A stretch of DNA of 47,841 bases, from positions 1 through 47,841 of the forward strand of contig JAADFE010000088.1 in the NCBI GenBank assembly GCA_013153055.1, written 5' to 3'. The notes beneath the pieces were generated by a model that saw nothing but the letters and a program-made list of their open reading frames with translations, was not told the origin of the DNA and searched no databases. This document shows positions 5,986-35,453 of the stretch, in pieces. A program made the translations under genes and the position numbers. The stretch is from Campylobacterota bacterium. GTDB lineage: Bacteria > Campylobacterota > Campylobacteria > Campylobacterales > Sulfurovaceae. How positions within the stretch are numbered: position 1 is the first letter of the stretch; every line of letters starts with the position of its first letter.

Positions 5986-6231
5986 TTCGAGGAAACATTC
6001 AAGTGTTTACCTTGTTAACCTGAGTGATTCGACGACTGTAATATGTGGTCCAACATTATATTTTGTGGGACATGTAGTTGAACAGGGTGTGGATGGTTTC
6101 GTTTGAGTAGCTAATCCCTACGAGAAATTGTCCCCAAATGTTCACTCTCTCCTACATCGTTGGCTTTTTAGGGCCGATTTAATGCAGAACGGTCACTCGG
6201 GATTTTTCCCAATAGTATAAATCCTCTGGAA
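5986..6231 (+). ncRNA. ssrS: Structured non-coding RNA, probable 6S RNA (SsrS) upstream of purD
   Basis: TATAAT at 5977-5982; closing helix TTCGAGG (5986-5992)/CCTC-TG-GAA (6223-6231); inner helix CCTGAGTGA (6019-6027)/TCACTCGGG (6193-6201); no ORF; location upstream of purD fits my recollection of epsilonproteobacterial 6S RNA. Confidence 0.55.
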
Positions 6232-15805: not shown

Positions 15806-16135
15806 TTAGTAATTAACCTGTTGAACTGAAGTACTATCAAGCAAAGCAGGATATAACTTTACTTCTCTATCAATATCTTCAAATAATTTATCTCTTGCTA
15901 CCTCTAACTCATATCTGTTTTGAAGATTCATCCAAAACTCTGCACTGTTTCCAAAAAACTTAGATAAGCGTAAAGCAGTATCTGCTGTAATGGCTCTTTT
16001 TTTATTTACAATCTCATTGATTCTACGAGGAGTAACATTTAGTGCTTTAGCCAAAGCATTTTGACTAATATTAAAAGGTTGCATAAACTCCTCTAAAAGT
16101 ATCTCTCCTGCATGTATTGGTTTTATTTTATTCAT
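15806..16135 (-). CDS. higA: HigA-type antitoxin (XRE HTH)
   Basis: HAGEILLEEFMQPFNISQNALAKALNVTPRRINEIVNKKRAITADTALRLSKFFGNSAEFWMNLQ. Confidence 0.92.
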   Translation of the reverse strand: MNKIKPIHAGEILLEEFMQPFNISQNALAKALNVTPRRINEIVNKKRAITADTALRLSKFFGNSAEFWMNLQNRYELEVARDKLFEDIDREVKLYPALLDSTSVQQVNY

Positions 16136-16144
16136 TTTTTACTC

Positions 16145-16426
16145 CTAATGATAATCTACTATTTCAACATCCAATGCAAAACCATTTTCCCATGTAAAAC
16201 AGATTCTAAATTGTTTGTTCACTCTAATGCTATATTGCCCCTCTCTATCCCCTGATAATTTTTCTAATCTATTGGCAGGAGGAATCCTAAGGTCATCTAT
16301 ATTTATTGCCGAATCTATCATCAAAAGTTTTCGATAAGCCATTCTTTGAATATCATGAGGTAACTTTTTTGAAAATTTTCGTTCATAGACTTTATGCGTC
16401 TCTTTACATCTAAATGTTTTAATCAT
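16145..16426 (-). CDS. higB: HigB-type toxin (RelE/HigB family mRNA interferase)
   Basis: IPPANRLEKLSGDREGQYSIRVNKQFRICFTWENGFALDVEIVDYH; located directly upstream of higA. Confidence 0.93.
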   Translation of the reverse strand: MIKTFRCKETHKVYERKFSKKLPHDIQRMAYRKLLMIDSAINIDDLRIPPANRLEKLSGDREGQYSIRVNKQFRICFTWENGFALDVEIVDYH

Positions 16427-18850: not shown

Positions 18851-19162
18851 ATGAGAAAATATATGATAATATATCTGTTTTTTGTTCTATTCTCTTTTAC
18901 TCTTTTCGCAGAAGATAATGCAGAGGTCTCTATCAAAGCTCTTATTGAGAGAATAAAAGAGGCAGGAGTTGAAGATAAGAGAGTGTTGATAAATCAACTT
19001 AAACTTGAATTACGAAAAATGAATAAAGAGAGTCGCAAAAAAACTGTTATGGAGTTGAAAAACTCTCTCAATCAAAAAAAAGTTAATATAGGTCATCAAA
19101 ATAGAACCAATAGAGTACATAGGTTGATGAGACATAGACATTTTGGAGGAGGTCATAGGTAG
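18851..19162 (+). CDS. Small exported protein with His/Arg/Gly-rich C-terminus, upstream of TCS
   Basis: Signal peptide MRKYMIIYLFFVLFSFTLFA; tail RVHRLMRHRHFGGGHR. Confidence 0.7.
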   Translation: MRKYMIIYLFFVLFSFTLFAEDNAEVSIKALIERIKEAGVEDKRVLINQLKLELRKMNKESRKKTVMELKNSLNQKKVNIGHQNRTNRVHRLMRHRHFGGGHR

Positions 19163-19791
19163 TGCATAGATTGCTTTTATTGGAAGATGACCCAAATCTC
19201 TCCAAAACTCTTATCAAATATCTCAAGCTCAATGGATATGAAGTTGATTGGGCAAAAAATGGTGAAGAGGCAGTAGAGCTTAGCTATCAAAATAGTTATG
19301 ATTTGTATCTATTTGATATAAATGTTCCTCTGTTAGATGGTATAGATTTGTTAACTCAACTAAGAAATGCAGAGGATTTTACACCAACTATTATTATATC
19401 TGCCATGGTTGATATAGAGTCGATAACCAAAGGTTTTATAGCAGGGGCTGATGATTATGTCAAAAAACCTTTTGACCCAGAAGAGTTATTGATTAGAATA
19501 AAAGCAAAAACAGCCTCATTAAAACAGAAGTTGGTTTTTAGAGATTTTGAGATAGATTTAGACTCTCATGAGATTAGATATAAAAAAGAGCTACTACATT
19601 TAGGTGTAGTCCAAAAAAATCTATTGATTGCTCTAATCCAAAACTATCCAAACCCTGTAACAAAAGATGAACTACTACTTTTGCTTGATAAGCCAACCGA
19701 TTTAGCCCTTCGAGTCAATATAGCCAAGCTCAAAAAAAACCTAGATATAAAAATACAAAGTATAAGAGGAGTTGGATATAAAATTATTTGA
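19162..19791 (+). CDS. OmpR-family response regulator
   Basis: LLLEDDPNLSKTLIKYL, LYLFDINVPLLDG, KKPFDPEELLIRIKA, winged-helix ending IQSIRGVGYKI. Confidence 0.93.
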   Translation: MHRLLLLEDDPNLSKTLIKYLKLNGYEVDWAKNGEEAVELSYQNSYDLYLFDINVPLLDGIDLLTQLRNAEDFTPTIIISAMVDIESITKGFIAGADDYVKKPFDPEELLIRIKAKTASLKQKLVFRDFEIDLDSHEIRYKKELLHLGVVQKNLLIALIQNYPNPVTKDELLLLLDKPTDLALRVNIAKLKKNLDIKIQSIRGVGYKII

Positions 19792-20803
19792 AAAAGAGTC
19801 TCTAATCAAGGGATTTAGCCTTTTTTTTATTGTTATTGAACTCTTTTTATCTTTTATCTTTTATAACTACTATAGATTAGAAGAGGAGCATCTAAGCGAA
19901 GAGATATTTTTGCAGATGAAAAACTATAGCTTCTTTTTTGATGATAGTAGGTTTGATATGGATATAGTTCCAAAAGTAAAAGAGAGTCAGCTATATGAGC
20001 TCTATTTTGATGATAAAAACCTATATATATTTGTCCCACTACTTGATGATAAGGAGAACTCACTAGAGATAATATATCCACTATCAAAGTACAAAGCTCA
20101 ACTAAAAGAGATTCAATACAGCCTTTTGTGGCAGTTTTTATCTTTGAGTATTGTTGCTATTTTGATATCTCTGCTTTTTGCTTTTTATGCATTGCATCCA
20201 CTTAGAAAAGCTCTAAATCTTTTAGAGGAGTTTATCAAAGATATTATCCATGACCTCAATACCCCTATCACATCTATACTCATAAACCTAAAAATGATGA
20301 AACAGAATGAAGAGGTAGAGAGTATAGCCCAAAGTGCAAATGCTATTGCTATGTTGCATAAAAATTTAGCGATATATCTAAAAGATAGCAATTTCCAGAT
20401 GGAAAATGTCTCCATAAAAGAGGTAGTAGATGAACAGGTTAAGTTTTTTCAGCCTCTATATGATTATCTAGTTTGGAGGATTGATATCAAAGATAAGGTG
20501 GTATTGTCAAATAGAAATGCTCTAAGTAGAATAGTATATAATCTAGTAAGTAACGCATGTAAATATAACACCTCAAATGGTTTTATAGAGATAAAGATGC
20601 AAGATAGCAAAACTCTAACAATCAAAAATAGTAGCTATGGTATAAAAAATCCATCAAAAGTTTTTGATAGATTTTACAAAGAGAGTGATAGAGGGTTAGG
20701 TATAGGACTCCACATAGTAGATAAACTTTGCAAAGAGCTAAATATAGATAAAAAGTTAGAAGTAGTTAACGATGAGGTTATGGTAACACTTGTATTTAGT
20801 TAA
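19772..20803 (+). CDS. Sensor histidine kinase
   Basis: Two TMs, H-box IIHDLNTPITSILINLKMM, N-box NLVSNACKYN, G-box GLGIGLHIVDKLCK; start codon uncertain. Confidence 0.92.
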   Translation: MDIKLFEKESLIKGFSLFFIVIELFLSFIFYNYYRLEEEHLSEEIFLQMKNYSFFFDDSRFDMDIVPKVKESQLYELYFDDKNLYIFVPLLDDKENSLEIIYPLSKYKAQLKEIQYSLLWQFLSLSIVAILISLLFAFYALHPLRKALNLLEEFIKDIIHDLNTPITSILINLKMMKQNEEVESIAQSANAIAMLHKNLAIYLKDSNFQMENVSIKEVVDEQVKFFQPLYDYLVWRIDIKDKVVLSNRNALSRIVYNLVSNACKYNTSNGFIEIKMQDSKTLTIKNSSYGIKNPSKVFDRFYKESDRGLGIGLHIVDKLCKELNIDKKLEVVNDEVMVTLVFS

Positions 20804-23838: not shown

Positions 23839-25956
23839 ATGAGTTATATGATGAAGATGTCTTTTCTGCTATTGCTTAACACAGCTATGGTTTTAGCAGG
23901 TACAATAGAGATAAAAAGTAAAATATCTAATCGTTTAGATGATGCTGAAGAGAATCGTGCTTCTGGGAAAATGTATCTTTATAGTCAGGGATTAGATTTG
24001 GTTGAAGATAAGGGAAATAATCATTTTGTAGGATTGAGATTTAAAAATATTAAAATTCCTAAAGGAGCTAATATAATAAATGCTTATTTACAATTTACAT
24101 CAGAAGAGATAAATAGCGAACCTACTAATTTGATAATTTATGGTGAAGCATCTAAAAAAGTTAGAAAATTCAAAGGAAAGAGTTATAATATTAGCAGTAG
24201 AGTAAAAACATATCTATCAGTAGAGTGGAGTAATGTTCCTGCTTGGAATTCTCGTAGAGAAAGAGGTGATGCACAGAGGAGTCCTAATATATCTTCAATT
24301 GTTCAAGAGATTGTAGATATGGATAGTTGGAAAAAGGGCAATGCTATGGGATTTATCATTACAGGGGATGGAAAAAGAGTAGCTAAATCTTATGATAGTA
24401 GTCGTACTTATGCACCTATTTTATATATAGAATATATGTCTGCTTTACCAGAAAAAAATCATATACCAATAGCTAATGCTGGTGATGACCAAATTTTATC
24501 ATTCAAAGATGAAGGTCGTTTTGTCTATCTTCATGGAGATAAAAGTAGTGATTTGGATAATGATGAGTTATTTTATAAGTGGCGTTTTTTATCTGTACCA
24601 GAAGGGAGTTCTTTGGCTTCTGATATATTTACTACACCCAATCCAAAATTTTATACAGAGTTAGCAGGTAATTATGTTTTAGAATTGGTTGTTAGTGATG
24701 GGGAGAGTAGTAGTGTTGCTGATACTGTAAAAATATTGATTACTAAACCATTTAATATAGAAGATAGTCTCAATAAAGATTTTCAGCCTAGTTCTCAAAA
24801 GAGTGCTTATTTTGTTGGTTCTAAGCGTTGTGAGAGTTGTCATAAAGAAGATTATACTCATTGGCATAATTCAAGACATGCTAAGATGATTCACAATTTA
24901 AAGACAAATCAATCTTCTGTAGTTGGGGACTTTTCTAACCTTCCTCCAAATGCTGATTTTACTCTAAAAGATATTCTTTATACTATGGGTGGTAAATTTA
25001 AACAGAGATATATGATACCAGCTATTATTAATGGTAAAAAAGATTTTAGACTTGGAAATTATCAATGGAATAGCGAGACTCATATGTGGCAGAGTTTTAA
25101 ACCATATAAATCTTGGTATTATGATAGTTATCCTCATGATAATAAACAATTTTCTGTTGCCAACACTTGTGATGGATGTCATTTTACAGGATATATGAGT
25201 CGAGAAAAACATATAGAATCTACTATTGGATGTGAAACTTGTCATGGACCAGGTAGTGAGCATGTTAAAAATCCTGCTAATCCTATCTATAAAGAAGCGA
25301 TAAATAATCCTGTTCGTAGTAATGATGTGTGTATTCAATGTCATATAAGAAATAGAGATAAGAGATTAGAAACTAATGAAACATTAAGTAGCTTATGGAT
25401 GAAAGCCAAAGATTATCCAAGTGGATATGAAGCAGGAAGACCATTGAGTCAATATAAATTGGATGCTCCTTTTACTCTTGGTGTAGAGACCTCAGAGTTT
25501 TGGGCAAATGGTGCAGCAAAAAAGAATAGAACACAAGGAAATGAGTATGTTCATGATGCTATGTATATCCATGGTGTGACATGTATGAATTGTCATAATC
25601 CACATAAGTTAACTAATGTTGCTGATAATTCCAATGGTAATGAGTCATGTATTCAATGTCACTCTTTGGGGGATGAAAGTGATGGTTCAATGGAAGAGAG
25701 AATTGAAGCACATACTCATCATAAAGCTAATTCAAAAGGCTCTTTATGTATTGAATGTCATATGCCTAAGACTGGTAAACATACAAGTCAATCACCTTTG
25801 ACTGTTCGTTCACATCAATTTAAATTTACCTCTCCTTTAGAGACAAAAAAATTTAATATGCCAAAAGAGACAAATGCTTGTTATAGTTGTCATAAAGATA
25901 AAAGTTTAGATAGTTTACAAGATAGTTTAGATAGATGGTTAAAAAATAGTAATTGA
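23839..25956 (+). CDS. Octaheme c-type cytochrome with N-terminal adhesion-like domain and PKD-like domain
   Basis: Signal peptide; residues ~205-300 PKD-like (PIANAGDDQILSF...DLDNDELFYKWRF...YVLELVVSDGESSSVADTV); eight CXXCH motifs: CESCH, CDGCH, CETCH, CIQCH, CMNCH, CIQCH, CIECH, CYSCH. Confidence 0.85.
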   Translation: MSYMMKMSFLLLLNTAMVLAGTIEIKSKISNRLDDAEENRASGKMYLYSQGLDLVEDKGNNHFVGLRFKNIKIPKGANIINAYLQFTSEEINSEPTNLIIYGEASKKVRKFKGKSYNISSRVKTYLSVEWSNVPAWNSRRERGDAQRSPNISSIVQEIVDMDSWKKGNAMGFIITGDGKRVAKSYDSSRTYAPILYIEYMSALPEKNHIPIANAGDDQILSFKDEGRFVYLHGDKSSDLDNDELFYKWRFLSVPEGSSLASDIFTTPNPKFYTELAGNYVLELVVSDGESSSVADTVKILITKPFNIEDSLNKDFQPSSQKSAYFVGSKRCESCHKEDYTHWHNSRHAKMIHNLKTNQSSVVGDFSNLPPNADFTLKDILYTMGGKFKQRYMIPAIINGKKDFRLGNYQWNSETHMWQSFKPYKSWYYDSYPHDNKQFSVANTCDGCHFTGYMSREKHIESTIGCETCHGPGSEHVKNPANPIYKEAINNPVRSNDVCIQCHIRNRDKRLETNETLSSLWMKAKDYPSGYEAGRPLSQYKLDAPFTLGVETSEFWANGAAKKNRTQGNEYVHDAMYIHGVTCMNCHNPHKLTNVADNSNGNESCIQCHSLGDESDGSMEERIEAHTHHKANSKGSLCIECHMPKTGKHTSQSPLTVRSHQFKFTSPLETKKFNMPKETNACYSCHKDKSLDSLQDSLDRWLKNSN

Positions 25957-25975: not shown

Positions 25976-26006
25976 TAACATTTGAGTAACAAAAATAGTT
26001 TATAAT
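25976..26006 (+). promoter_or_regulatory. Predicted RR operator + -10: TAACA-TTTGAG-TAACA-N9-TATAAT
   Basis: GGTAACATTTGAGTAACAAAAATAGTTTATAAT upstream of DUF2202 gene. Confidence 0.75.
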
Positions 26007-26035: not shown

Positions 26036-26635
26036 ATGTTAAAAAGAACAATTTTAATTTCGACTGTAGTTGCTATGATTAGTGTAACTGCAATGGCTAG
26101 AGGTCATTATAGTGATAATGTAAATAGAGGTCAAAGTACTACTGCTACTTCTTCATATAGCCGTACTACTAGTATCTCTTCTCTTCCTTTAAGTGATTTG
26201 ACAGATGCTCAAAAAAGTGATTTGTTATTTATGATAGAAGAAGAAAAATTAGCGAGAGATGTATATACATATCTCTATAACTTATGGGGTAATTATGTTT
26301 TTAATAGTATTGCCCGTTCTGAACAAAAACATATAGATGCAATAGAGTTTCTTATAAATAGATATGGCTTAGATACACCTTCAACATTAAATACTCAAGG
26401 TGTATTTGAAAATGAAGAGCTTCAATCTTTATATAATACATTGATTGAAAAAGGTCAATCATCATTAATTGATGCTTTAGAAGTTGGAGTTATGGTTGAA
26501 GAGACAGATATATCAGATTTAGAAGATATTTTAGATGTAGGAGTTCCTAGTGATTTTGAAACTATTTATCAAAATTTATTAAAAGGAAGTTATAGTCATC
26601 TTAATGCTTTTAACAGACAATTATCAATACAATAA
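26036..26635 (+). CDS. DUF2202 (ferritin-like) exported protein, copy A
   Basis: Signal peptide; MIEEEKLARDVYTYLYNLWG...SEQKHIDAIEFLINRYGL...ALEVGVMVEETDISDLEDIL. Confidence 0.88.
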   Translation: MLKRTILISTVVAMISVTAMARGHYSDNVNRGQSTTATSSYSRTTSISSLPLSDLTDAQKSDLLFMIEEEKLARDVYTYLYNLWGNYVFNSIARSEQKHIDAIEFLINRYGLDTPSTLNTQGVFENEELQSLYNTLIEKGQSSLIDALEVGVMVEETDISDLEDILDVGVPSDFETIYQNLLKGSYSHLNAFNRQLSIQ

Positions 26636-30154: not shown

Positions 30155-32182
30155 ATGAGAAAGACAATCTATCTATCATTAGTGTGTGTTGGATTTTTAA
30201 ATGCAGCAGAGCAATTAGAGGATATTGATATTGTAGAACAGGCTACAAGTGAAGTGGTTGAGAATGTTAGCAATGAGGAGATAAAGAGTGCTGACTTAGC
30301 AGAGGCTTTACAGAGAAATATCCCTAGTGTATCGATGATAAGGAGAAGTGGAATTGCCAATGATATTATCCTAAGAGGACAGACTAGAGATAATATCAAT
30401 GTTGTTATTGATGGTGCAAAAGTTTGTGGTGCTTGTGTAAATAGAATGGACCCTCCTACATCACATGTAGTTACAAGCGTTATTGATGAGGTAGAGGTCA
30501 CAGAGGGACCTTTTGATGTTGAGGATTTTGGAACACTCAGTGGTGCTGTTAAAGTGACAACCAAAAAGCCAAGCAAAAAGCTAAGTGGAGAGATTGGAGC
30601 AAATGTAGGTTCATTTGGTTATCAAAAGTTCTTTGGTACTCTAAGTGGTGGAACTGATAAAGTTAGAGTTTTATTTACAGCTTCTAATGAAAAGAGTGAA
30701 CAGTATGAAGATGGTGATGGTAATGATTTGGCTACTCAGCTAAAAAACTATACAGCCACTAGAGGTTTGAGTGCTTATAATTATGCCCCAAAATATGAGG
30801 ATATGGATGCCTTTGAAAAGAGTACTATGATGGGTAAAGTCTTTATAGATGTAGCTGATAATCAAGAGCTTAGATTTAGCTATACAGCCAATAGAAGTGA
30901 TGATGTACTATACCCATCAAGTAAAATGGATGCTATATATGATGATAGTGATATAGCCAACTTTGAATATATTGCTAAAGATTTAGGGAAATTTTCTAAA
31001 AAATTATATTTTCAAGTATATAACTCTCAAGTAGAACATCCTATGAGTACAGAGTACAGAAATATAGGGCAAGAGAAGTATATGACTCATAAGCTAACAA
31101 CAGAGATGACAGGTATTAAGCTAAAAAACAGTGTTGATATTTTTGGTGACAGAGAGATTACTTATGGTATCGATAGTGGCAAAAGAAATTGGGATGGTCA
31201 CTATTATACAACAACAGTAGCCAATGGTGCTACAAAAGAGACTGGAACAAGTATTGATGATGTTGATACCGATAATGTTGGTGTTTTTGTAAAATGTAAA
31301 AGACAAATAGGTGATATAGATGTAGCATGGGGAGCTAGATATGATGATACTTCTATAGATACAAAATCTCAAACAGAGAGAGATAGAGACTATAATGCTT
31401 TTTCTGCAAATATTTTTACTACATATAAATTAGATAATGATACAAATATATTTGGTGGATTTGGAAAATCTAGTAGAGTTCCAGATGCAAGAGAGCTTTA
31501 TAATACTAAGTATAAAAAGTTAGATGATGGAACTATGCAGAGAATAGTCAATGGTAATCCAAATTTAAAACAGACAAAAAATTACGAAGTTGATTTAGGA
31601 GTAGAGAAGTTTTTTGCAAATGGAAAGATAAAAGCAAAAACATTCTATTCCAAACTAGAGGATTATATATATTATAACAGTAGCAAGATGATGAATAATT
31701 TTGAAAATATTGATGCTCATATATATGGTGCAGAGATTAATGGAAACTATTTAATTAGTGATGATATAAGTTTTGATGCAGGAGTAGCATATAAAAAAGG
31801 TAAAAAGGATACATTACCTACAAATCAAACCGATAAAGATTTAGCAAATATATCACCAATTAAACTAAATGCTTCATTAAATTATGATTATGATGACCAA
31901 GGTTCTGTTCAATTCTCAGTCGTATCAGCAGGAAAATGGGATGATATAGATAGTCAAAATGGTGAACAAGAGTTAGATGGATATACTGTTTTGAATTTTA
32001 AAACAAGTAGAGAGTTTAATAACGGTGTAGTATTGACAGCAGGAGTTGATAATATAACAGATGAGACTTATGCTATAACCAATACATACAAAGATTTGAT
32101 TTTAATGACAGATAACACTGATACCATGCTTATAAATGAACCTGGTAGATACTTTTATCTCAATGCTAAATATCAGTTTTAG
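30155..32182 (+). CDS. TonB-dependent receptor, copper-receptor (OprC/NosA)-like
   Basis: Plug: IILRGQTRDNINVVIDGAKVCGACVNRMDPPTSHV...VEVTEGPFDVEDFGTLSGAVKVTTKKP; NRMDPPTSH signature as I recall for OprC-type receptors. Confidence 0.78.
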   Translation: MRKTIYLSLVCVGFLNAAEQLEDIDIVEQATSEVVENVSNEEIKSADLAEALQRNIPSVSMIRRSGIANDIILRGQTRDNINVVIDGAKVCGACVNRMDPPTSHVVTSVIDEVEVTEGPFDVEDFGTLSGAVKVTTKKPSKKLSGEIGANVGSFGYQKFFGTLSGGTDKVRVLFTASNEKSEQYEDGDGNDLATQLKNYTATRGLSAYNYAPKYEDMDAFEKSTMMGKVFIDVADNQELRFSYTANRSDDVLYPSSKMDAIYDDSDIANFEYIAKDLGKFSKKLYFQVYNSQVEHPMSTEYRNIGQEKYMTHKLTTEMTGIKLKNSVDIFGDREITYGIDSGKRNWDGHYYTTTVANGATKETGTSIDDVDTDNVGVFVKCKRQIGDIDVAWGARYDDTSIDTKSQTERDRDYNAFSANIFTTYKLDNDTNIFGGFGKSSRVPDARELYNTKYKKLDDGTMQRIVNGNPNLKQTKNYEVDLGVEKFFANGKIKAKTFYSKLEDYIYYNSSKMMNNFENIDAHIYGAEINGNYLISDDISFDAGVAYKKGKKDTLPTNQTDKDLANISPIKLNASLNYDYDDQGSVQFSVVSAGKWDDIDSQNGEQELDGYTVLNFKTSREFNNGVVLTAGVDNITDETYAITNTYKDLILMTDNTDTMLINEPGRYFYLNAKYQF

Positions 32183-32225: not shown

Positions 32226-33572
32226 TTAATTTCTACCGTATCTTCTTCCTTGTCCCTGTTCTTGACCTTGTTCTTGATTTTGTGAAGAATCGTTTTCATG
32301 TTCATTTTGAGGATATTCTGTATGACAATAATTTACTCCATTGATTTCTCCTAATGAACAGCAACCATTTTCTATTCCTATATTTTGAAGACCTTTGTCA
32401 AATGCCCAATAGTGATTATAACTAGCATCTCTTAAGACGGTGAACGCATCTAATATATCAGTCGCATTAGACTCTTGTGCCATAGTTATTCTCTCATTTA
32501 AATCATTGATATCAGTAACTTCTACCATACAACCAACTTCTAAGGCATCTTTTTCAGATTGAATGCCTTTTTCATATAGTACATTATATAGATTTTGAAT
32601 TGCTGGTATGTCATAAACGCCTATTGGCAAATCTTCAAATGCTGTATTACTACTTGCAACAGGATTAATTACATTTGTTAGGTTTTCTTCTGATAAATTA
32701 TATTTTTTTACTATTGATTGAACAGTTTGAACATGTGTTGTTTCAGACCTTTCAGCAATATTTTTTAGTTGATTAATATTCAAAGCACTATTTTCTGAAT
32801 GATAGTTATATAAATTTATATATACATCATGAGCTAGTCTCTCTTCATTACCCATATATGATATAGCATCTTTTAAATCTTGTGTTAATGTTGATAGAGG
32901 ATAGCTATTTATATCAAAAGTTCCATTTTGCCCATGTTCATCATTTGAAGAGTTCTGGTTACAAGTACTGTTTTCATCATATTCATATCGATAACTATTA
33001 TCTTCCCATGTATTTAAACTATATTCATAATGTTGTTCTGCTGTAGTAGTTGTTACATCAATTGAACCATCATAATCTTCATCTAATTCGTTAGCTAAAT
33101 CTGGGTTAATAGCTAAAATTTCATTATCACTTTCTAAGCTACTTATATTTATTTCACTATTTAGAGAAGTTAACTCTTCTATAATTTCATCAGGTATTGT
33201 TATTCCATTTGATGGGTCATTATCAACATCTAAAGATTGTAAAACTCTTAGTATAAGAACTTTTGTATCTTCATCTCCATTGGCTAAGCTATCAGGTGTT
33301 ATCAATCCTTTATCATCAGGTGCAGCTTCTCCAAGATTTAGTTTACCTATATAAAACTTTACATTATCCCCTGTTTTAAAGTTAAATCTTCCATAGTTAT
33401 CAGTAGTTCCAGTTTCTCCACTACTAGTTTTATACTCAGCACCTGCAACTGGTGAATCTATAAAATATCCCGTTTGTACAGAAGAATCATCACTATCACT
33501 ACTACTTCCACATCCAATTAATAGTACTGATACAACTGTAGATATCGTTCCTAAAGTTAATATTTTTTTCAT
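32226..33572 (-). CDS. DUF2202 lipoprotein copy B with extra N-terminal domain and Cys/RG-rich tail
   Basis: Lipobox VSVLLIGCGSS; MGNEERLAHDVYINLYNYH...ALEVGCMVEVTDINDL; C-term NGCCSLGEINGVNYCHTEYPQNE...QEQGQGRRYGRN. Confidence 0.85.
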   Translation of the reverse strand: MKKILTLGTISTVVSVLLIGCGSSSDSDDSSVQTGYFIDSPVAGAEYKTSSGETGTTDNYGRFNFKTGDNVKFYIGKLNLGEAAPDDKGLITPDSLANGDEDTKVLILRVLQSLDVDNDPSNGITIPDEIIEELTSLNSEINISSLESDNEILAINPDLANELDEDYDGSIDVTTTTAEQHYEYSLNTWEDNSYRYEYDENSTCNQNSSNDEHGQNGTFDINSYPLSTLTQDLKDAISYMGNEERLAHDVYINLYNYHSENSALNINQLKNIAERSETTHVQTVQSIVKKYNLSEENLTNVINPVASSNTAFEDLPIGVYDIPAIQNLYNVLYEKGIQSEKDALEVGCMVEVTDINDLNERITMAQESNATDILDAFTVLRDASYNHYWAFDKGLQNIGIENGCCSLGEINGVNYCHTEYPQNEHENDSSQNQEQGQEQGQGRRYGRN

Positions 33573-34658: not shown

Positions 34659-35453
34659 TTATCTCCAACCACCACCTCCCATTCCTCTACCGTGACCTTG
34701 TCCCCGTCCTTGTCCTTGTCCTTGTCCTCGTCCACCACCTTTTTCATTTTGTGGATATTCAGGATGACAATACTCTTGTCCTATAGAACAACAACCGTTA
34801 GAGACTCCTAGCTGTTTTAATCCTTTATCAAAAGCCCAATAGTGGTTATAACTTCCTTTTCTTAGAAAATCATAAGTTTGTAAAACATCTTGAGCATTAG
34901 CTCTTTGAGCTTGAGAAATATATTTGTTCAAATCATTAATATCTGTAACTTCTACCATACAACCTACCTCTAGGGCATCTCTTTGAGAACGGATACCTTT
35001 GTTATATAGTTGATTAAATAGAGACTGTATATGGCTATTTTGATAACGACCTACTTGTTGGTTAGGAGTTGGTACACCATATTTTTGAGCTAAATCTTTT
35101 ACAGCGTCGATATGTCTACTCTCTGAACGAGTTGCAATTTGAGATAGTTGATTAAGAGGTTGTTTTTGATATATAGATAGATATACCTCTTTTGCTAGAC
35201 GCTCCTCTTCGTACATATAAGATAAAGATTCTTTGACATCATTTGTAATTGAATTTCTATTATATGAACTAGTTGATGGTGCTTGTTGATTAGTAGTTCT
35301 TGTTTGTCCAAAACTTTGATTACTATTGTAACCATTACCATTGTTTCCCATACATCCTGTTGCAAATATTGCTACAACAGCTATTGTAGATAGCATTTTT
35401 GTATATTTCATCATTGAAAATCCTTTATAGTTTTTCAAATTATAACTTTTCAA
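34659..35453 (-). CDS. DUF2202 lipoprotein copy C with Cys motif and RG/GQ-rich tail
   Basis: MYEEERLAKEVYLSIYQKQ...ALEVGCMVEVTDINDLNKY; NGCCSIGQEYCHPEYPQNEKGGGRGQGQGQGRGQGHGRGMGGGGWR; lipobox AVVAIFATGCMGN. Confidence 0.87.
   Translation of the reverse strand: MKSYNLKNYKGFSMMKYTKMLSTIAVVAIFATGCMGNNGNGYNSNQSFGQTRTTNQQAPSTSSYNRNSITNDVKESLSYMYEEERLAKEVYLSIYQKQPLNQLSQIATRSESRHIDAVKDLAQKYGVPTPNQQVGRYQNSHIQSLFNQLYNKGIRSQRDALEVGCMVEVTDINDLNKYISQAQRANAQDVLQTYDFLRKGSYNHYWAFDKGLKQLGVSNGCCSIGQEYCHPEYPQNEKGGGRGQGQGQGRGQGHGRGMGGGGWR

Follow-up and report, generated by a model that had tools for sequence, protein, structure and literature searches.

Among solved structures, the heme half of the protein presented here is closest to OcwA, a nonaheme protein of the Gram-positive cell wall of Thermincola potens (PDB 6I5B) that has nitrite/hydroxylamine activity. 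Hemes 2 and 5 of OcwA are penta-coordinate, its hemes 1-4 can be overlaid on cytochrome c554, heme 2 being the active site, and its hemes 1-4 plus 6-9 on MccA (PMC6703420). The undecaheme cytochrome of Carboxydothermus ferrireducens (PDB 6QVM) is an S-layer protein, also located at the surface. Regarding carbohydrate binding, the CBM96 module is related to the DNRLRE domain and binds alginate through a basic groove (PMC9971899). Its known members are carried by polysaccharide lyases or archaeal surface proteins. Fusions of carbohydrate-binding modules to cytochromes are already known. Cbp2D of Cellvibrio japonicus (PMC8981238) combines in one chain a CBM2, an Ig-like (FN3) spacer, YceI and two mono-heme cytochrome c domains, and the cytochrome reduces LPMOs. 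Within our incomplete coverage of the literature, no description of a multiheme cytochrome bearing PKD or CBM96 domains was found. To our knowledge, no extracellular electron transfer machinery native to the phylum Campylobacterota has been well described.

We have analyzed a stretch of 47,841 nucleotides (the window from here on) from an uncultured Campylobacterota bacterium of the family Sulfurovaceae. One of its genes (23839..25956, + strand, 705 aa) codes for a signal peptide, a CBM96-like module, a PKD-like domain and an octaheme domain. As in Cbp2D, a carbohydrate-binding-type module, an Ig-like spacer and a cytochrome c part are found in a single chain, although the octaheme core has no equivalent in Cbp2D. 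Our preferred reading, to which we give a probability of roughly 0.55, is that a membrane-anchored octaheme oxidoreductase was converted here to a soluble, glycan- or matrix-docked one that is probably exported.

The heme half and its solved relatives

The ORF starts with ATG and has an AAGGA-type ribosome-binding site just 5' of it. It codes for exactly eight CXXCH motifs, the number claimed in the original prediction; in 20,000 shuffled versions of the protein the mean was 0.0125 and the maximum 2. All located in the octaheme domain (aa 310-705, 24766..25953, + strand), they are CESCH (24829..24843, aa 331), CDGCH (25168..25182, aa 444), CETCH (25231..25245, aa 465), CIQCH (25330..25344, aa 498), CMNCH (25582..25596, aa 582), CIQCH (25648..25662, aa 604), CIECH (25747..25761, aa 637) and CYSCH (25879..25893, aa 681), and they contain the 16 Cys of the protein without exception. 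A domain search and a structure prediction had been proposed together with the original claims. The former matched this half to Cytochrome_C554, Cytochrome_C7 and Paired_CXXCH, with PF13435 (Cytochrome_C554) at the first heme well above threshold (45.4 bits vs a cut-off of 20.8), while the PKD and CBM96 matches described below fell under theirs. The AF2 prediction was confident for the N-terminal domain (see below) and poor for the heme half, modelled without hemes (mean pLDDT 56).

In the PDB the best sequence match was OcwA (phmmer E 4.9e-20, profile E 6.7e-31), ahead of 6QVM and then cytochrome c554. OcwA and 6QVM were also the sole significant fold matches of the heme-half model. At an identity of ~22%, eight of the nine heme motifs of OcwA are in register with the window protein, motifs 1-4 with OcwA 1-4 and motifs 5-8 with OcwA 6-9, so that OcwA heme 5, the second open heme, is absent here. 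This rules out an OcwA proper (nonaheme), and OcwA also lacks the N-terminal modules. The 6QVM cytochrome, for its part, differs in having eleven hemes and S-layer anchoring. With its eight CXXCH in the conserved register of the OcwA/c554 type, the heme half belongs to a widespread octaheme family known from sequence, for which we found no assigned function in the literature. Because the register of the CDGCH at aa 444 is that of heme 2 in OcwA, the penta-coordinate heme of the active site, heme 2 would be, by analogy, the best candidate for the catalytic heme.

Other multiheme families were considered as well. MccA sulfite reductases are characterized by a CX15CH-type heme and extra Cys ligands. 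A weak match to MccA was indeed seen at the first heme, although with every Cys placed within a CXXCH neither feature is possible and an MccA-type identity is ruled out. No HAO match appeared in Pfam or NCBIfam. A weak PF22113 match (27.7 bits, under the cut-off of 30) points instead to the outer-membrane terminal reductases of the MtrC/OmcA type, against which stand the missing lipobox and the lack of porin-cytochrome partners in the window. That the protein is one of these reductases or an octaheme enzyme of the HAO/MccA type is thus hardly credible.

N-terminal modules and the fusion junction

A signal peptide, a beta-rich domain and a PKD-like domain do precede the first heme, as had been claimed. 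The signal peptide (aa 1-20, 23839..23898, + strand), read from the sequence, is of the Sec/SPase I type, with a predicted cut after VLA (MSYMMKMSFLLLLNTAMVLA/G) and neither a lipobox nor any Cys in the signal region. The two halves of the protein were folded apart, since the full-length alignment misaligned N-module fragments. The N-domain (aa 21-205, 23899..24453, + strand) was modelled as a beta-sandwich (pLDDT ~92), and its best Foldseek match in the PDB was a chondroitin-sulfate CBM (8WAB, E 2.8e-5, probability 1.00); the founding CBM96 alginate CBM was also matched (7VBO, E 3.6e-4, probability 1.00). The model thus has the beta-sandwich fold of CBM96. We call the domain CBM96-like, and not CBM96, because the Pfam profile (E 0.002, 18.4 bits) stays under the curated 26-bit cut-off. 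A conserved acidic DDAEE motif, which could hold Ca2+, is common to the window domain and CBM96/DNRLRE. The window copy differs from the known members in being part of a cytochrome. The domain had been described as adhesion-like; its beta-rich character was correct, and the reading that suits the predicted structure best is a carbohydrate-binding fold of the CBM96-like (DNRLRE) type.

The PKD-like domain (aa 207-303, 24457..24747, + strand) matched PF22352 with an E of 2.5e-5 and 24.7 bits vs a cut-off of 27. A PKD protein of the same genus matches this stretch (E 1.2e-16), and a same-genus homologue is over the PF22352 cut-off with 47.7 bits. In the AF2 model this part shows strands with low confidence.

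The same genome has a single other gene with the N-domain, coding for a paralogue of 429 aa that is 55% identical. Relatives that are 40-51% identical were found in proteins of ~670 to 2,730 aa from the same family, where Calx-beta, laminin-G, GEVED, CotH or beta-helix domains accompany them in long surface-type proteins. Among the 14 N-domains compared, that of the window is the single basic one (net charge +6, pI 9.4), the 13 relatives being acidic without exception (net -1 to -17, pI 4.3-5.9). This is only suggestive of a module re-tuned to an acidic polysaccharide. A CBM-like fold on a cytochrome also brings to mind a protein that supplies a polysaccharide-active enzyme with electrons, the role suggested for Cbp2D/E of Cellvibrio japonicus. 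The precedent of Cbp2D and the predicted fold speak for such a partner; the mono-heme domains of Cbp2D, where the window has an octaheme core, and the absence of polysaccharide-active genes among the neighbours examined speak against it, as does the fact that the relatives of this bacterium are typically sulfur/hydrogen chemolithoautotrophs. We consider it very improbable.

The junction between the two halves lies at aa ~304-318 (24748..24792, + strand). At this place a hydrophobic anchor and ~20 further aa are found in the orthologues, before the shared LQPxxQK.A.FVGS stretch. The join falls at the exact start of orthologue conservation, aa ~313 ('KDFQPSSQKSAYFVGS' vs 'KDLQPQAQKDAHFVGS'). The fusion is known from one species, represented by a draft genome that is 84% complete, and no second fused sequence was found in 175 genomes of the family and 34 of the genus. 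Such rarity in a single draft genome is what an assembly chimera, between a gene for a DNRLRE-type surface protein and an octaheme gene, would also produce. Nevertheless, the join is in frame and exactly at a domain boundary, and G+C (0.31-0.32) and GC3 (0.14-0.18) are even across it. Furthermore, there is no obvious shared sequence for a false join, because the genome contains the heme domain just once, and the protein of its one other N-domain gene shares only 55% identity. We therefore regard mis-assembly as an unlikely source of the fusion and such a chimera as very improbable. The domain swap and its rarity are seen directly in the sequences, and a real, lineage-specific fusion, limited to the species of the window among the Campylobacterota inspected, is well supported. 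An apparent second case, a 678-aa "fusion" in another genome (G489), turned out to be an artefact, a run of N that links a DedA-like gene to an octaheme gene.

Octaheme orthologues in Campylobacterota and distant kin

The heme domain was present in 54 of the 175 genomes of the family, its own included, and the orthologous octaheme family is common in Sulfurovum-like vent bacteria. Either half of the full protein found matches in 30 of the 399 genomes of the order, and a phylum-wide sample added only weak partial matches. We inspected 46 orthologues with all eight motifs (the window and the G489 artefact not counted). All of them are stand-alone proteins of about 415-490 aa, ~52-68% identical in the heme domain (one example is from the complete genome G206), and none has the N-terminal modules. 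Where the window has a signal peptide with CBM-like and PKD-like domains, all 46 have a hydrophobic stretch that falls roughly in residues 1-25 (or beyond, if the start was probably called too early), mostly without an AXA site, and the heme domain begins at residue 37-64. The hydrophobic helix appears to be an inner-membrane anchor, and the orthologues are presumably periplasmic and anchored by their N-terminus; an extracellular location is unlikely for them. At the sequence level, the putative anchor has thus been lost in the window protein and a cleavable-type signal and surface-type modules have been gained, while the heme motifs and most of the conserved His have been kept. The anchored form, presumably the ancestral one, is still present in dozens of relatives, which provides a natural before/after pair for how a domain swap could move a periplasmic multiheme enzyme towards the cell exterior.

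The eight CXXCH motifs are invariant in 48 Campylobacterota sequences, and so are the spare His 347, 475, 578, 589, 625, 628, 648 and 659, candidates for distal ligands. Of the positions with at least 95% constancy in the others, 18 are changed in the window. One of these is His 618, invariant in the Campylobacterota relatives and Met in the window (H618M). A changed heme ligand was considered here and set aside, since distant relatives do not keep His 618 either. Two further changes of the window, T440V and S441A, immediately precede heme motif 2. A maximum-likelihood tree placed the window among the orthologues of its own genus (support 92/85) and gave it the longest of all end branches (0.84 vs a median of 0.14). 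This would be expected of vertical descent followed by fast divergence, the placement of so long a branch not being certain.

More distant kin were found in Granulicella, Rhizobium and Aureibacter, in which all eight CXXCH align with those of the window at 25-35% identity. The Granulicella relative is a shorter protein. Those of Rhizobium and Aureibacter, annotated as "cytochrome c3 family" or "tetratricopeptide repeat protein", carry C-terminal repeat domains rather than N-terminal surface modules. Both are encoded on plasmids near sulfatase genes, a possible clue to the function of the family, and the Aureibacter gene also adjoins cytochrome b and Rieske genes.

Location, export and gene neighbourhood

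From the combination of multiple hemes and extracellular-type modules, the original prediction had suggested a surface-exposed or outer-membrane-associated role. The octaheme domain and the surface-type modules are there, and surface exposure is plausible, though not proven, as the sequence is also compatible with a soluble periplasmic protein. Association with the outer membrane was not borne out: the protein showed no lipobox, barrel or C-terminal sorting signal and does not belong to MtrC/OmcA. The window contains no porin-cytochrome conduit, and PF13435/PF09699 searches of the genome gave no other large multiheme protein, only a smaller C554-type one adjoining a nirS-like gene. The same genome does code for type II secretion, with GspC, D, E and G genes on one contig (C78) and a GspF-like gene on another (C46). 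GspD and GspG were over curated cut-offs and GspC, GspE and GspF below theirs; K, L, M and N were assigned on C78 by size and position only. Export of multiheme cytochromes by this type of system is known from Shewanella. Directly beside the type II secretion genes there is a small exosortase-family protein (L112 10830-11309, TIGR04178 over cut-off).

A soluble periplasmic enzyme is the main alternative. The octaheme domain would have been freed into the periplasm, where the modules would bind a periplasmic glycan or protein and the reaction would be that of the anchored orthologues. It would agree with a cleavable Sec signal unaccompanied by any outer-membrane signal and with the presumed periplasmic location of the orthologues. 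In addition, conserved basic residues and the heme-2 register may indicate a small-anion enzyme, by analogy with the nitrite/hydroxylamine activity of OcwA (PMC6703420). On the other hand, the kin that the N-module has within the genus are long proteins of the surface type, and it is hard to see what use a basic, glycan-binding-like module would be in the periplasm. Those relatives of the heme half whose location is known are also surface proteins. We take the periplasmic enzyme to be possible rather than probable. The surface reading is favoured because the N-module has its relatives in long surface-type proteins and the nearest solved kin of the heme half are cell-surface and S-layer proteins, which suggests, and does not prove, an extracellular or matrix location.

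According to our preferred reading of a docked and probably exported protein, an ancestral-type octaheme oxidoreductase (OcwA/cytochrome c554 type) would have been kept at the inner membrane by an N-terminal helix that is not cleaved off. At the domain boundary this helix would then have given way to a signal peptide that can be cleaved, with a CBM96-like module and a PKD-like spacer behind it. After Sec export, signal cleavage and attachment of the eight hemes in the periplasm, the protein would be released from the membrane and would cross the outer membrane, most likely via the type II secretion system that the genome encodes. Its basic N-module might dock the heme wire on acidic polysaccharide, either of the cell's own matrix, of the cell surface or of a biofilm neighbour, and the docked protein would pass electrons to acceptors, or take them from donors, in soluble or particulate form. 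In this scheme we infer the membrane topology of the relatives, the export route, the ligand, the substrate and the direction of electron flow. A bolder version of it, an inner-membrane octaheme enzyme turned into a matrix-bound extracellular electron carrier by exchanging the anchor for a basic glycan-binding module, seems to us rather doubtful; if true, this would be a cytochrome wired to biofilm polysaccharide.

The neighbourhood of the octaheme genes is only loosely linked to them and contains no conserved redox partner. In genus g6 (L094-L099) the plain octaheme gene is preceded by aroE and followed by an ArsRS-like two-component pair. In three genomes of genus g1 FlgRS-like genes are found by it, and in two of these a copper-type TonB receptor is nearby. 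The window itself has a TonB receptor (30155-32182) that resembles the copper type most (TIGR01778, E 5e-57, below cut-off); in one congener (L087) an orthologue with 68% identity is encoded ~2 kb away from the plain octaheme gene, and a partial one occurs in another (L086).

The TAACA operator was correctly said to be missing from the cytochrome gene: the 630-bp intergenic region upstream of it has no TAACA half-site, nor were any RNA motifs found there. Elsewhere in the window, exact TAACA-N6-TAACA direct repeats occur five times (18791, 25976, 27580 and 30088 on the + strand, 33616 on the - strand), compared with 0.31 expected, and none of 300 simulations reached five. Each lies ~40-75 bp before an ORF start, and the one at 25976, just downstream of the cytochrome gene, is in front of a DUF2202 gene. 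An OmpR-type response regulator and a histidine kinase are encoded at 19162-20803, and together with the five sites they look like one regulon. Three DUF2202 genes are located within a 10-kb stretch (26036-26635, 32226-33572 and 34659-35453). Besides, the window has a purD RNA motif at 6074-6202 (RF01069, 92 bits) and, at 15806-16426, on the edge of what had been described as a metal island, a HigB-like toxin gene with an adjoining HTH (antitoxin-like) gene.
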